From the NCBI GenBank assembly GCA_022562855.1, contig JADFON010000067.1:1-8147 (forward strand): a DNA stretch of 8,147 bases, in the 5' to 3' direction. Under the pieces are notes generated by a model, which saw only the letters and a program-made list of their open reading frames with translations, was not told the DNA's origin and ran no database searches. Below, in pieces: positions 1 through 4,204 of this stretch. Each line of letters starts with the position of its first letter. The stretch's first letter is position 1. Source of the stretch: Candidatus Zhuqueibacterota bacterium (lineage in GTDB: Bacteria; SM23-31). The position numbers were made by a program, and so were the translations under genes.

Positions 1-111
1 CAAAACAGACTGAATGCAGTCGCAAAACGACTGAACGAGAGACCAAGAGAAACGTTACAATTTAGAACACCGGCTGAACGATTTAACCAATGTGTTGCAT
101 CGACCGGTTGA
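1..111 (+). CDS. IS30-family transposase, C-terminal end (5' truncated by window edge)
   Basis: The frame starting at base 1 reads 36 codons and stops at TGA 109-111. The peptide contains RLNERPRETLQFRTPAERF and ends CVASTG, the characteristic tail of IS30-family DDE transposases, which catalyse cut-and-paste or circle-mediated transposition of short insertion sequences. In the family this segment lies just after the third catalytic acidic residue (Glu), so the catalytic core is outside the window and whether the gene is intact cannot be judged. The element's right end should lie shortly after the stop; the inverted repeat at 123-160 is in the expected place, but I cannot match it to a known IS end. 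The base composition is richer in GC than the genes further right. Confidence 0.85.
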   Translation, partial: QNRLNAVAKRLNERPRETLQFRTPAERFNQCVASTG

Positions 112-577: not shown

Positions 578-1945
578 TTACGCTTTATCCATAGCATGCA
601 AATGTTTTATAGTTCTCGCGGAATAAAATATAGCACTCACTAATGACCATACAGCTATGGCAGCCAATGACCAGAAAGGGGCATTTAACAAAACTCCTAT
701 TAAGATAAAGACTATGTAACTATTCTTTCTGCCATCAAATTTCCTAAATAGCTGTTCGATTCTACCGTAATCCTGCAAGTCACGACTCTTGATCGCCTTT
801 CCAAATGCACTTCCACAATAGTCAGAAACCCCATCGAAGAGAAGGATAAGTGTGCTAAGTAACATGGGTATTGCTCCAAACGTATTTGATAGATAGATTG
901 CCAATGCTATATACCACGAGTGTTCAAAAAGAAAATCAAATGCATGCTCCATTTTGCCAATATTTGAAAAAGATAATTTCACTCTCGAGAGTTTTCCGTC
1001 CACCCCATCCATAAACGAAACAACAAAGGTGAGGACGGAAGCAAACAATAGATCTCCTTTGAAAAATGAAAATGTGGATGTATAGGCAATTATGTTGATT
1101 AGTATGGTCACCTGGTTCGGTGTAACCTGCGTGTTTACCAATCTGCTTACAATAAAATTTTCTATTGGCTTGTTGACATAGGTTGCAAGCAAATCATTTC
1201 TTCCTTTACAGGCGTTCTCAATTAAAAGCTCCCTTGCTTTGATTAAATCCTCCTTTGTATCAATATTTATCCAGAAGGGTTTAACCTCCTTCCGCATGCT
1301 CGGGATATAGCTGTTAATTTGCGTGATGTCGAATATTTCAGCATCTCTGTGCTTAGCAGCCTTAGCAATACCATGCGCAAGCTCAGTCTTGCCTTCTTTT
1401 ACTGCCTCCTCAATATGAGAGAATATTCTTGGTGAGCACAAAAAGATACCAGTATCTATGCAGTTTGATTCTCCTATATTTTTACCGATATCGGCAATCC
1501 TTTCCTTCTTCTCCAGAACCTTTGTGTCTTCTGGTAAAGGTCTTCTTCTATCAACAGCTAAAACAACTGAACTTTTTGTATCATAATCGATAAGTTCTTT
1601 AAGAATGCGAACATCAAAGATATGGTCTGACATTAATAGGATGAAGTTTTCATTTAACAATCCTTTGGCCTTTAATACAAAGATCCCATTTTCTTTTTGG
1701 CAGTCATTATTTTCGATATAGTTTATTTCTACTCCATACCTATCTCCAGTTCCCAATTTTGCTTTTATTTTGTCACCCAGATAACCAACAACTATCACGA
1801 ATTCTTTAATGCCTGCTTGGTTTGCAGTTAATATTACTCTTTCGATCAAAGACAAACCCAAAAGTTTAATCAGGGGCTTGGGTTTATTTTTAGTTAAGTT
1901 GCCCAATCTGCCACCGTCTCCAGCGGCAAGTATTAAGGATTTCAT
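578..1945 (-). CDS. Bifunctional NTP-transferase / CDP-alcohol phosphotransferase (IPCT-DIPPS-like architecture)
   Basis: A 455-residue two-domain protein. Residues 1-245 form a nucleotidyltransferase: LAAGDGGRLGN (6-16) is the nucleotide-binding loop, followed by KPKPLI (21-26), ENG (85-87), the metal-binding MSDH (105-108) and WINIDTKEDL (225-234). Residues ~255-455 are a membrane-embedded CDP-alcohol phosphotransferase domain with several hydrophobic helices and the core D313-G-V-D316-G-x2-S-R321, G330, then E333 and D337. Fusions of this kind activate an alcohol phosphate as its CDP derivative and transfer it to a second alcohol; the best-known example makes di-myo-inositol phosphate phosphate, while others may make lipid headgroups. 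The substrate cannot be read from the sequence. I place the start at ATG 1943-1945 because LAAGxGxRL normally lies close to the N-terminus and AAAGAG precedes it by 6 bases; an in-frame GTG at 1958-1960 would add five residues. The DxxDGxxAR motif is modified (see findings). Confidence 0.8.
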   Translation of the reverse strand: MKSLILAAGDGGRLGNLTKNKPKPLIKLLGLSLIERVILTANQAGIKEFVIVVGYLGDKIKAKLGTGDRYGVEINYIENNDCQKENGIFVLKAKGLLNENFILLMSDHIFDVRILKELIDYDTKSSVVLAVDRRRPLPEDTKVLEKKERIADIGKNIGESNCIDTGIFLCSPRIFSHIEEAVKEGKTELAHGIAKAAKHRDAEIFDITQINSYIPSMRKEVKPFWINIDTKEDLIKARELLIENACKGRNDLLATYVNKPIENFIVSRLVNTQVTPNQVTILINIIAYTSTFSFFKGDLLFASVLTFVVSFMDGVDGKLSRVKLSFSNIGKMEHAFDFLFEHSWYIALAIYLSNTFGAIPMLLSTLILLFDGVSDYCGSAFGKAIKSRDLQDYGRIEQLFRKFDGRKNSYIVFILIGVLLNAPFWSLAAIAVWSLVSAIFYSARTIKHLHAMDKA

Positions 1946-1996
1946 ATTCAACTCTTTCACCTTTCCCTTAAGTTCTTATAAAGGCGATTCAAAAAT

Positions 1997-2021
1997 TTCG
2001 TATAACTCGTTTCTATACGAA
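1997..2021. repeat. Perfect inverted repeat TTCGTATA / TATACGAA, lox- or Xer-arm-like
   Basis: TTCGTATA (1997-2004) and TATACGAA (2014-2021) are exact reverse complements around a 9-base spacer. The octamer is identical to the inner part of the loxP arms and TTCGTATAA resembles the XerC half of dif sites. loxP itself has an 8-base spacer and different outer arm bases, and no XerD half is present, so this is a similarity of form, not an identification. It lies 48-72 bases upstream of the first visible stop before the tyrosine-recombinase fragment that starts near 2132. Confidence 0.55.
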
Positions 2022-2028
2022 TTGAATG

Positions 2029-2034
2029 TATAAT
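2029..2034 (+). promoter_or_regulatory. Possible -10 element facing the recombinase fragment
   Basis: TATAAT on the plus strand about 100 bases before the recombinase remnant; no good -35 is present at the usual spacing. It mirrors the minus-strand hexamer at 2053-2058, so the two candidate promoters would point across each other. Confidence 0.18.
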
Positions 2035-2052
2035 ATCGACCTTTTGTTGTAT

Positions 2053-2058
2053 ATTATA
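2053..2058 (-). promoter_or_regulatory. Possible -10 element for the nucleotidyltransferase gene
   Basis: TATAAT on the minus strand, about 108 bases before the chosen ATG at 1945. There is no TTGACA-like -35 at 16-18 bases upstream, so the call rests on the hexamer alone in an AT-rich region. If real, the TATACGAA boxes downstream of it would lie in the early transcribed region or operator. Confidence 0.22.
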
Positions 2059-2131
2059 CGAACTTGATGTATGATTATTGGTGAAATTACTAATAATTTT
2101 TTACTGGTTTTATTATATCAATTTTTATTGA

Positions 2132-2290
2132 ATTATACAAGAATATTTAGAGAAAACAAAGCAGGAATTAAGATTAAGAAATTATAGCTTTAAAACTATA
2201 AAAGCTTATTTGGGTTGCCTTAAGGAATATTTTGACTTTCAAAGATTTAATTTAGAAAAGATAGACGAAGAGAAAATAAAGCAAAAGCTA
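2132..2290 (+). pseudogene. Tyrosine recombinase (Xer/phage integrase-like), N-terminal SAM-like domain fragment
   Basis: The plus-strand frame from 2132 translates to a peptide containing EYLEKTKQELRLRNYS, then KTIKAYLGCLKEYF and LEKIDEEKIKQ. This is the typical N-terminal core-binding (SAM-like) domain of XerC/XerD-type integrases, which grips the recombination site before the C-terminal catalytic domain cleaves it. Only about 53 residues are present. The catalytic domain with its R-H-R-Y residues is absent, there is a TGA directly upstream (2129-2131), and no ATG, GTG or TTG starts the frame, so an N-terminal frameshift or loss is likely. From about 2281-2290 the sequence changes to that of the opposite-strand kinase, though the frame stays open until TGA 2360-2362. 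The remnant overlaps the last ~17 codons of that kinase in antisense. No function is expected, but it shows that a recombinase once sat beside the lox/Xer-like repeats at 1997-2075. Confidence 0.7.
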
Positions 2291-3759
2291 TTCTTCGCAA
2301 ACTTATGGTATTCCCAAAGAACATTTTTTATTACGGAACTCAAATCGCCCTTTTCCAATTGAAGCTCATAGTTTCCGAATTCGAATTCCTGTACGTCTTT
2401 TATCCTGTTGACGAGATCTACAATTTTATCTATTTGGTAGTCGATTTTTCTTATGAGAGATAACTGTTTTTCCGATAATTCGTTATTGTTAAAATATAAG
2501 AGACTATCGTTGTAAATTTTGATTGGCGAAAGCATATTGTTCAATTCATGTCTTAAAAAACCTTCATACTCATTCTTCAAATTTTCAATTTCTTTTTCCA
2601 ATTTGATTCTCTCAGATATGTCTCTTTTTACCGCAATAAAATTTACAACGTCCCCATTGTCATTCTTTACCGGTGCGATCGATATTTCCTCGTCATAAAG
2701 GGTGCCGTCTTTCCTTTTATTTTTGATCGAGGATTTCCATATTTTTCCTTTATTGATAGTATTCCATAGATCTTTATAGAATTCATCAGAGTGCTTTCCG
2801 CTTTTGAGAAACCGCGGGTTTTTCCCGAGAACCTCATCCTTTGTATATCCTGTCATAGTCTCAAAAGCGGGATTAACATAATGTATCGAACCATCGAGAT
2901 CAGTAATCATGACTGCGTCATAAGCCTGATCAATTCCTGTCTTGAGACGTTTAATTTTATCCTCCGCCTCTTTTTGCTCAGTAATATCATGCAGTATACC
3001 GGTGTACATTTTTTCGTTGTTTATTTCTGTTTCGCTCACCGCGAGATATAACGGGAATATGGTTCCGTCTTTACGCTTGCCCTGGACTTCTCTTCCAATT
3101 CCAATGATCTGTTTTTCTCCGGTTTTTTGATACTGCGATAAGTAGTTATCGTGCCCCTGAAAATAAGGTTCCGGCATCAGTATTTTCACGTTTTTCCCGA
3201 TTAATTCCTCAGAAGAATAGCCAAATAATTTCTCTACCGCCGGATTTACAGAATCGATGATCCCGTTTCGATTTATCGTTGCAACTCCGTCTACAATGGT
3301 ATTAAGTACATTTTTGATTTTTCGCTCATTATCAAGGACTGTTTTTTCCGCTTCTAATTTGCTTTCAAGCAGCAGTTTTTCGTAAACAATCTTACCGATA
3401 ACGCCCGGGAGCTTATCAAGATATCTTCCTTCAACATCCTTTATGAGATAATCACTGGCGCCAAGCTTCATCGCTTCTACGGCAAGAGACTCACTGCCCT
3501 GCCCGGTTATCATTATTACGGGAGGGACATCGTCATACTCTTTCAGCTTGCGGATTACTTCCAGTCCGCTGTATACAGGTAAATCGTGATCAACAAGTAT
3601 CACATCAAAGGCTCTCTTTTTGTACAGTTCGAGACCTTTTTTCCCATCCGGTGCAATAGTAACAGTGTAATCTTTTCGTTCGAGATACTTTTTGCAGAGA
3701 TTTGCTATACCGGGATCATCTTCCATATACAGAAGACAAATTTTCCTTGACAGATGCAT
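2239..3759 (-). CDS. Hybrid REC-PAS-PAS-HisKA sensor kinase, truncated before the HATPase domain
   Basis: Numbering is from ATG 3757-3759 (506 residues). Residues ~7-121 are a receiver domain with acidic pocket E13-D14-D15, phospho-acceptor D57 (VILVDHDLP), T85 and K107. Residues ~148-266 are a PAS domain very like FixL: LMPEPYFQGHDNYL with H203 at the heme-ligand position and IIGIGR with R223 at the distal arginine position. Residues ~272-388 are a second PAS. Residues ~396-470 form the dimerisation/phospho-acceptor domain with H404 in FLRHELNN. The protein then ends after EYHKFAKNS with a foreign tail (FCFIFSSSIFSKLNL) read antisense through the recombinase fragment; the N, G1 and G2 boxes of the ATP-binding domain are missing. 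It therefore probably cannot phosphorylate itself, although the receiver and sensor domains could still act. I prefer this start to ATG 3769-3771 because GGAGA sits 5 bases before it. It overlaps the upstream regulator gene by 44 bases. Confidence 0.85.
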   Translation of the reverse strand: MHLSRKICLLYMEDDPGIANLCKKYLERKDYTVTIAPDGKKGLELYKKRAFDVILVDHDLPVYSGLEVIRKLKEYDDVPPVIMITGQGSESLAVEAMKLGASDYLIKDVEGRYLDKLPGVIGKIVYEKLLLESKLEAEKTVLDNERKIKNVLNTIVDGVATINRNGIIDSVNPAVEKLFGYSSEELIGKNVKILMPEPYFQGHDNYLSQYQKTGEKQIIGIGREVQGKRKDGTIFPLYLAVSETEINNEKMYTGILHDITEQKEAEDKIKRLKTGIDQAYDAVMITDLDGSIHYVNPAFETMTGYTKDEVLGKNPRFLKSGKHSDEFYKDLWNTINKGKIWKSSIKNKRKDGTLYDEEISIAPVKNDNGDVVNFIAVKRDISERIKLEKEIENLKNEYEGFLRHELNNMLSPIKIYNDSLLYFNNNELSEKQLSLIRKIDYQIDKIVDLVNRIKDVQEFEFGNYELQLEKGDLSSVIKNVLWEYHKFAKNSFCFIFSSSIFSKLNL

Positions 3760-4204
3760 CAAATTCTCCATTAGACAATTTCACGATTAAAACAAAAAGA
3801 CCCAGTTTGGTTATTGCATCAGCGAATTGCGAATAATCGACGGGTTTGGTAATGAATACGTTACATCCCAACTGGTAACACCTGTTGATCTCATTTTGAT
3901 CTTCAGTCGAGGTCAGGACTATGACCGGTATGTGCTTGGTAGACTCATTGCTTTTTAATTCCTTGAGAACCTGGTATCCGTCAACTTCCGGCAGATTTAG
4001 ATCGAGCAAAATCAGAAGCGAATCCAATTCCGCTTTGCCTTTTTTATCAGTCTTTTTGAATATAAAATCAAGAGCCTTCCTGCCGTTTTCGATCGTAATG
4101 ATCGGATTTTTGATCAGCGCCCTTCTAAGATTGCGCTCTATCAGTTTTGCATGACCCGGGTCGTCCTCAACCAATACTATCGTAATATCATTTATCTTGT
4201 TCAT
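3716..4204 (-). CDS. Single-domain response regulator, Rcp1-type CheY-like receiver
   Basis: A 162-residue stand-alone receiver domain with no output domain. Conserved residues are E13-D14-D15 (VEDDPGHAKLIERNLRRA), phospho-acceptor D68 in LLDLNLPEVDG, T98 in VIVLTSTED and K120 in FITKPVD. The N-terminal VEDDPGH plus LIERNLRRA pattern is typical of Rcp1-like regulators that receive phosphate from PAS- or phytochrome-type kinases and pass it on by protein contact. The partner is most likely the kinase immediately upstream, whose 3' end overlaps this gene by 17 bases; GGGGA lies 8 bases before the ATG. Residues after about 145 extend past the usual end of the family into a 44-base overlap with the next gene, so the tail may be of little structural importance. 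In such phosphorelays this protein could shuttle phosphate to another component encoded nearby or elsewhere. Confidence 0.88.
   Translation of the reverse strand: MNKINDITIVLVEDDPGHAKLIERNLRRALIKNPIITIENGRKALDFIFKKTDKKGKAELDSLLILLDLNLPEVDGYQVLKELKSNESTKHIPVIVLTSTEDQNEINRCYQLGCNVFITKPVDYSQFADAITKLGLFVLIVKLSNGEFDASVKENLSSVYGR
3765..3769 (-). promoter_or_regulatory. Shine-Dalgarno GGAGA for the hybrid kinase
   Basis: GGAGA on the minus strand with a 5-base spacer (ATTTG) to ATG 3757-3759. It lies inside the coding sequence of the preceding response regulator and decides the start: the alternative ATG at 3769-3771 overlaps the motif itself. Confidence 0.6.

Follow-up and report, generated by a model that had tools for sequence, protein, structure and literature searches.

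Genes and repeats in the window

The window (8147 bp, the whole stretch of DNA analysed) is an entire contig, C73, of a metagenome-assembled host genome (2.5 Mb, 80% complete, 491 contigs). A fused nucleotidyltransferase/CDP-alcohol phosphatidyltransferase gene is followed by a group of short repeats, by the 5′ part of a tyrosine recombinase gene and by a truncated histidine kinase gene, and the coordinates of these features, named according to the identification reached below, are collected in Table 1. At the contig's very end (1-108, plus strand), the C-terminal end of an IS30-family transposase is encoded, 80.6% identical to annotated plasmid ones, and at 167-221 on the minus strand lies a tRNA-like stretch (Rfam tRNA, 33 bits; not accepted by ARAGORN), which is probably a damaged tRNA-Gly gene. 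With the transposase tail and the tRNA-like stretch at its left end, the contig is a mosaic.

Table 1. Features of the window (positions in bp; names follow the identification given in the text)
Feature	Position	Strand	Basis or remark
Candidate first-cassette gene, fused nucleotidyltransferase/CDP-alcohol phosphatidyltransferase	578-1960	-	Pfam NTP_transferase and CDP-OH_P_transf
attI core site, ATTTCGTATAAC (GTTATACGAAAT on the cassette strand)	1995-2006	-	Identical to the attC R′ consensus
Inverted TATACGAA box	1997-2004	-	Part of the core site's cassette-derived side; makes up a lox-like inverted repeat (8-9-8) with the box at 2014-2021; variable in other copies
attI proper, side conserved among copies	2006-2085	-	Holds two TATACGAA boxes that form part of a 21-nt direct repeat; MAFFT alignment, divergent loci
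Conserved TATACGAA box adjoining the core site, probable integrase-binding arm by analogy	2014-2021	+	Copy alignment, divergent loci, shuffles
Second conserved TATACGAA box, inside GTATATTATACGAACTTG, probable accessory direct repeat	2055-2062	+	Copy alignment, divergent loci, shuffles
5′ remnant of intI, short Patescibacteria type	2132-2304	+	Frame 2132-2281, 23-base deletion, about 20 more homologous bases; protein and DNA alignment
Host PAS histidine kinase gene, truncated at the junction	2239-3771	-	Last ~17 residues read from the back of the intI remnant; ATPase domain lost
Junction of intI remnant and host histidine kinase gene	2293-2304		TTCGCAAAC in common; ends of kinase and intI homology

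Exact copies of the box TATACGAA are found at 1997-2004 in inverted orientation and at 2014-2021 and 2055-2062 in direct orientation, just as described in an earlier interpretation of the letters alone (hereafter the sequence-only reading), and their number exceeds that in shuffled versions of the window (mean 0.33; three copies reached in 1 of 200 shuffles). Both inverted repeats of that description are present and perfect, one of 8 bp with a 9-base spacer (1997-2004/2014-2021) and one of 9 bp (2028-2036/2051-2059), and a 21-nt direct repeat with 81% identity covers 2014-2034 and 2055-2075. When the host genome was searched with a pattern containing TATACGAA, matches were no commoner than for the reversed control, a result that removes the idea of the boxes as genome-wide operators of an unrelated regulator. 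A site nearly matching the box pattern was seen on host contig C54.

The frame at 2132-2290 on the plus strand is stop-free and was taken for an N-terminal SAM-like recombinase domain in the sequence-only reading. Its match to Pfam Phage_int_SAM_4 is weak (E 2e-4, under the gathering score), but its residues 2-51 have 86% protein identity to the N-terminus of a full-length Parcubacteria recombinase (L030), and only this N-terminal part of a tyrosine recombinase is retained in the window. In DNA alignment with intact homologues, a deletion of 23 bases, placed within a few bases of about 2281, was found as the same gap against L030 and L033; about 20 further homologous bases follow, and homology to the recombinase gene stops at about 2304. 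From the other side, the PAS histidine kinase remains homologous to a gene from the same family (G002:C315) as far as residue 493, at about window position 2293. Since the kinase homology ends at about 2293 and that of the recombinase gene at about 2304, a single junction cuts both genes, which lose their 3′ ends at the same point and have there a short stretch of about 10 bases, TTCGCAAAC, in common. Neither the deletion nor the subsequent fusion to the kinase gene had been noticed in the sequence-only reading. The host genome contained no other relative of the recombinase, only Xer-like and unrelated recombinases, and encodes a XerC/D-like protein of its own.

Short integrases of Patescibacteria and their attI site

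Genomes were scanned with an alignment (A1) composed of the window fragment and three self-written variants that served to loosen the patterns, and the matches were confirmed by tblastn using the window's own sequence. The fragment matches about 60 loci, mostly of Patescibacteria, and the intact relatives are about 270 aa long; the full-length relatives L030 and L037 contain the PF00589 catalytic domain together with an N-terminal SAM-like domain, as tyrosine recombinases do. Frameshifts or internal deletions also break the integrase genes of L034, L035, L036 and L051, so that loss or decay of the integrase seems to be common. No match to the N-terminal fragment was obtained in phages, plasmids, viral contigs or the PDB. 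Within the plasmid records listed, the Patescibacteria integrase had its best full-length match on an Agathobacter plasmid (L130, 1486-3506), in which a short integrase is directly followed by an IS91-family transposase.

In a MAFFT alignment of 11 close copies (the window and ten others), conservation starts exactly at ATAACTCG (window 2002) and extends to the integrase gene, and left of this position unrelated DNA was found in every copy. In most of them a different gene starts about 20-90 bp past the boundary and points away from the integrase. Read on the other strand, the boundary consists of AACGAGTTAT and then a variable stretch ending roughly in GMAATTT. The box at 1997-2004 falls on that side of the recombination point which varies and derives from the cassette, a circumstance that had escaped the sequence-only reading. 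The consensus of the attC alignment described below (A2) begins with ATTTCGTATAAC, which is the core site of the window, and by analogy with integrons the crossover would take place at G^TT, between 2006 and 2005.

In divergent relatives, a core ATTTCnnnTAACTCGTTT and an arm TATnCGAA recur about 95-150 bp before the integrase gene. Within the 220 bp upstream of the integrase, the core motif was found in 29 of 39 loci and the exact box (TATACGAA or TTCGTATA) in 25 of the 39, against an expectation, taken from the rest of the same loci, of about 0.008-0.009 per 220 bp for either of them (about 0.009 for the box); the check proposed in the sequence-only reading, namely that the boxes lie upstream of homologous integrases, thus gave the predicted outcome. 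The fixed boundary and the differing, divergent first genes correspond to an integron in which intI adjoins attI and the cassettes at attI read away from intI.

The IntI-specific domain was absent from the full-length relatives examined, which therefore are not IntIs in the strict sense, and the window fragment ends before the region of this domain. The distance between the KGxKDR and HxLRH motifs was 64-67 residues in nearly all measurable members (KGxKDR was not recognised in a few) and 74 residues in the divergent member L083, compared with 109 in a true IntI from the same scan (L070). The alignment to Vibrio cholerae IntIA (PDB 2a3v) splits into two blocks around the domain, and in a residue alignment with IntI1 and two other IntIs the domain gap is directly visible. 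With TIGR02249, six relatives scored 207-229 bits, which places them under the cut-off of 265 and outside the strict definition, and true IntIs scored 448-472 bits; with NF040815 (XerA_Arch) the relatives scored 214-237 bits, the cut-off being 220. In a tree (its root for drawing only), the recombinase clade groups with true IntI and apart from Xer, a placement that is soft because of long branches, those of Xer among them. A Spirochaetales recombinase without the domain (L085, 3577-4386), which has four attC matches upstream and stands on a long branch next to true IntI in the tree, is a possible intermediate. Integron integrases are defined by this domain, which is located near patch III. 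The title of Messier and Roy 2001 (a reference of both PMC9668308 and PMC2426708) names it as necessary for activity, and in PMC2426708 the additional IntI domain served as a selection criterion for integron integrases.

attC arrays and their co-occurrence with the integrase

A first attC search was too strict, demanding ATAAC/GTTAT ends without deviation as well as a matching outer stem, and yielded L037 and L069 alone; by a hairpin search with AAC/GTT cores attC-like sites were found upstream of many of these integrase genes. Nineteen such sites were aligned (A2), and the covariance model R1 was used for the searches. Two helices are supported in the alignment by many two-sided changes, although the pair statistics are partly circular because the sites of the model were chosen for complementarity. 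Of the 80 matches to R1, obtained in 61 loci, all but 4 lie on the strand of the integrase and upstream of it (76), even though more downstream DNA (261 kb) than upstream DNA (183 kb) had been searched; loci without a match mostly had only a few hundred bases upstream or held distant, unrelated integrases. As single strands, six sampled sites fold beyond almost all shuffles (z -3.9 to -5.9), and in seven loci no Rfam family covered these sites. Imperfect hairpins with R and L boxes, a G-TT core and a position at cassette ends, as in attC of integrons, are thus present in the relatives.

The intervals between attC sites usually contain one short gene, the longest ORF lying on the array strand in 40 of 42. 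In our own reading of the sequences the cassette genes are diverse and include a radical-SAM protein, a DMT-type transporter, rubrerythrin, a Ham1-like protein and many unknowns. Whole-genome searches of 28 genomes chosen for their integrase revealed attC in 27. Twelve attC matches were spread over the chromosome of an Altiarchaeales archaeon with a domain-less integrase (L060, genome G080), and in genome G086 several contigs together gave 11 attC matches despite an integrase (L078) that is interrupted after about 18 residues.

Co-occurrence was examined in 286 genomes sampled evenly from the phylum of an Uhrbacteria genome (integrase at E 1e-45, attC at E 1e-4). The integrase was found in 37 genomes, with one match each, attC in 47, and both in 29. 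Accordingly, attC was present in 29 of the 37 integrase-positive genomes compared with 18 of the 249 integrase-negative ones (Fisher odds ratio 47, p 2e-20, the p-value being nominal because the genomes are not independent by descent). The 18 genomes with attC alone would be called CALINs.

In the window itself, no attC was found, the best match of the model (14.5 bits) being attI, and none was convincing in the host genome, where a single match (E 0.14) was obtained. The stretch following the nucleotidyltransferase gene (440-577) likewise gave neither a fold signal (z -0.93) nor a match to the covariance model. This gene begins at a distance of about 45 bp from the core site and is directed away from intI. 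The sequence-only suggestion of it as possible cargo is plausible in the form of a first cassette with its attC missing; probably it is the last captured cassette, stripped of its attC, although the absence of attC from the window, and of a convincing one from the genome, weakens the case for a cassette. Its product resembles the bifunctional inositol-phosphate cytidylyltransferase/DIPP synthase (NF041135, 188 bits, under the cut-off of 580). The resemblance is to a thermophile enzyme for di-myo-inositol phosphate, at a score far under the family cut-off. Relatives of the gene were absent from viral contigs, and plasmids gave only distant ones.

Identity of the locus and relation to known systems

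The feature in the window very probably consists of attI and a 5′ stub of intI from a Patescibacteria-type integron. The tyrosine-recombinase remnant beside its own recombination site that had been proposed in the sequence-only reading is thereby given a name, the boxes belonging to attI and the fragment to the 5′ end of intI; the additional proposal, that this is the left end of an integrative element having a corresponding far end, has to give way to intI, attI and oppositely running cassettes with attC ends. Judged from its sequence, the integron of the window is inactive, its integrase being frameshifted and cut off at the junction with a host gene, and the window would represent a decayed integron platform, originating either from a fragment that was acquired by the host and then decayed or from a chimeric contig.

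The chimeric origin, according to which Patescibacteria integron DNA, making up positions 430-2304 in the left part of the contig, was joined to host DNA by an assembly or binning error, is a serious possibility, if a somewhat doubtful one; it concerns where the fragment came from and not what it is, and can hold together with the integron. The loss of two 3′ ends at the same point speaks for it, as do the fragmentation of the metagenome assembly into 491 contigs, the lack of attC and of any intI homologue other than the Xer type in the genome, and the IS30 transposase tail and tRNA-like stretch at the left end of the contig. These points are balanced by the frameshifting deletion of 23 bases, which lies inside intI independently of the junction, by the common stretch of about 10 bases at the junction, which is short for a graph-assembly error, and by the broken integrase genes of L034, L035, L036 and L051, which indicate that decay is common.

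It is very improbable that the recombinase is a chromosome-dimer resolvase of the XerS, XerH or XerA type with the boxes as its dif site, which in such systems can adjoin the gene. The NF040815 scores about the cut-off, the single match per genome, the Xer-like length and the missing IntI domain would fit this, but a near-universal single-copy resolvase with one dif is not what was observed: the gene is in only 37 of the 286 sampled genomes, too patchy a distribution for dimer resolution, and a genome has many attC. Moreover, each copy has different DNA on one flank of the site, attC hairpins with cassettes are found by the dozen on one side, the tree, soft owing to its long branches, puts the clade with IntI and apart from Xer, and the host has its own XerC/D-like protein. 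Hardly credible, finally, is an integrative element (ICE, phage or transposon) that inserts by its own recombinase and has one of its ends here, since, although a tyrosine recombinase adjoins an inverted-repeat site and the flanking DNA on one side differs per copy, the flanks are single-gene cassette arrays with attC ends and not one chromosomal target, phages and plasmids (N-terminal query) and viral contigs (also with the attI pattern) gave no match, and no empty-site case of whole-element insertion at one conserved target was found.

If the intact relatives work as integrons do, a single tyrosine recombinase of 270 aa would attach to attI at the TATACGAA arms and catalyse exchange between the core site (G^TTAT on the cassette strand) and the folded attC of circular cassettes. 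Insertion would use the folded, single-stranded bottom strand of attC, and with each event a cassette of one gene, oriented away from the integrase gene, would be added immediately next to attI. The system is like an integron and has the integron features tested in the relatives, and its integrase falls outside the strict definition of IntI. We lean towards the view that Patescibacteria, some archaea and other bacteria have functional integrons whose integrase is a minimal one, lacking the IntI-specific domain; such activity is presumed from the likeness to known integrons. In that case attC recombination does not need the domain, a form older than the domain may persist in this clade, and searches that require IntI would overlook such systems or list them as arrays without an integrase (CALINs). 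The domain may either have been gained by IntI or have been lost in the short-integrase clade.

The collection of resistance genes is what integrons are best known for. Domain-less integrases beside genuine-looking attI and attC in streamlined, mostly uncultured bacteria make the purpose of the domain testable, and likewise how integrons arose from Xer-like recombinases; they are also a possible route of gene gain for the reduced genomes of Patescibacteria. The importance of the window itself is limited to that of a decayed trace from which the intact systems were reached. In the open-licence literature, neither Patescibacteria integrons nor integron integrases without the domain were found described, an absence that is weak evidence.

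Compared with known systems, the TATACGAA arm and the inverted pair around a short spacer resemble loxP in layout, and the site differs from Cre/loxP in that the lox-like left arm of the window comes from the variable cassette side. With the XerA, XerC and XerD resolvases, the short integrases have in common the catalytic fold, a similar length and NF040815 matches at about the cut-off; these resolvases act on dif, whereas the short-integrase system has attI, attC cassette arrays and a patchy distribution. With classical integrons (class 1 IntI1; Vibrio cholerae IntIA, PDB 2a3v), the divergent layout of intI, attI and cassettes is the same, as are the attI arms adjoining a G^TT-type core, the attC hairpins and the one-gene cassettes on the array strand. 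The integrase resembles IntI in its N-terminal domain (PF13495) and in a C-terminus ending in SPL, and differs from it in being short (about 270 aa), without the IntI-specific insertion of about 40 residues before the H-x-L-R-H motif. With archaeal integrons (Ghaly et al. 2022, PMC9668308), the system has in common hosts outside the classical ones, attC arrays and an attI adjoining intI; archaeal IntIs carry the IntI-specific domain according to that study, whereas the Altiarchaeales member of the present family (L060) is without it.
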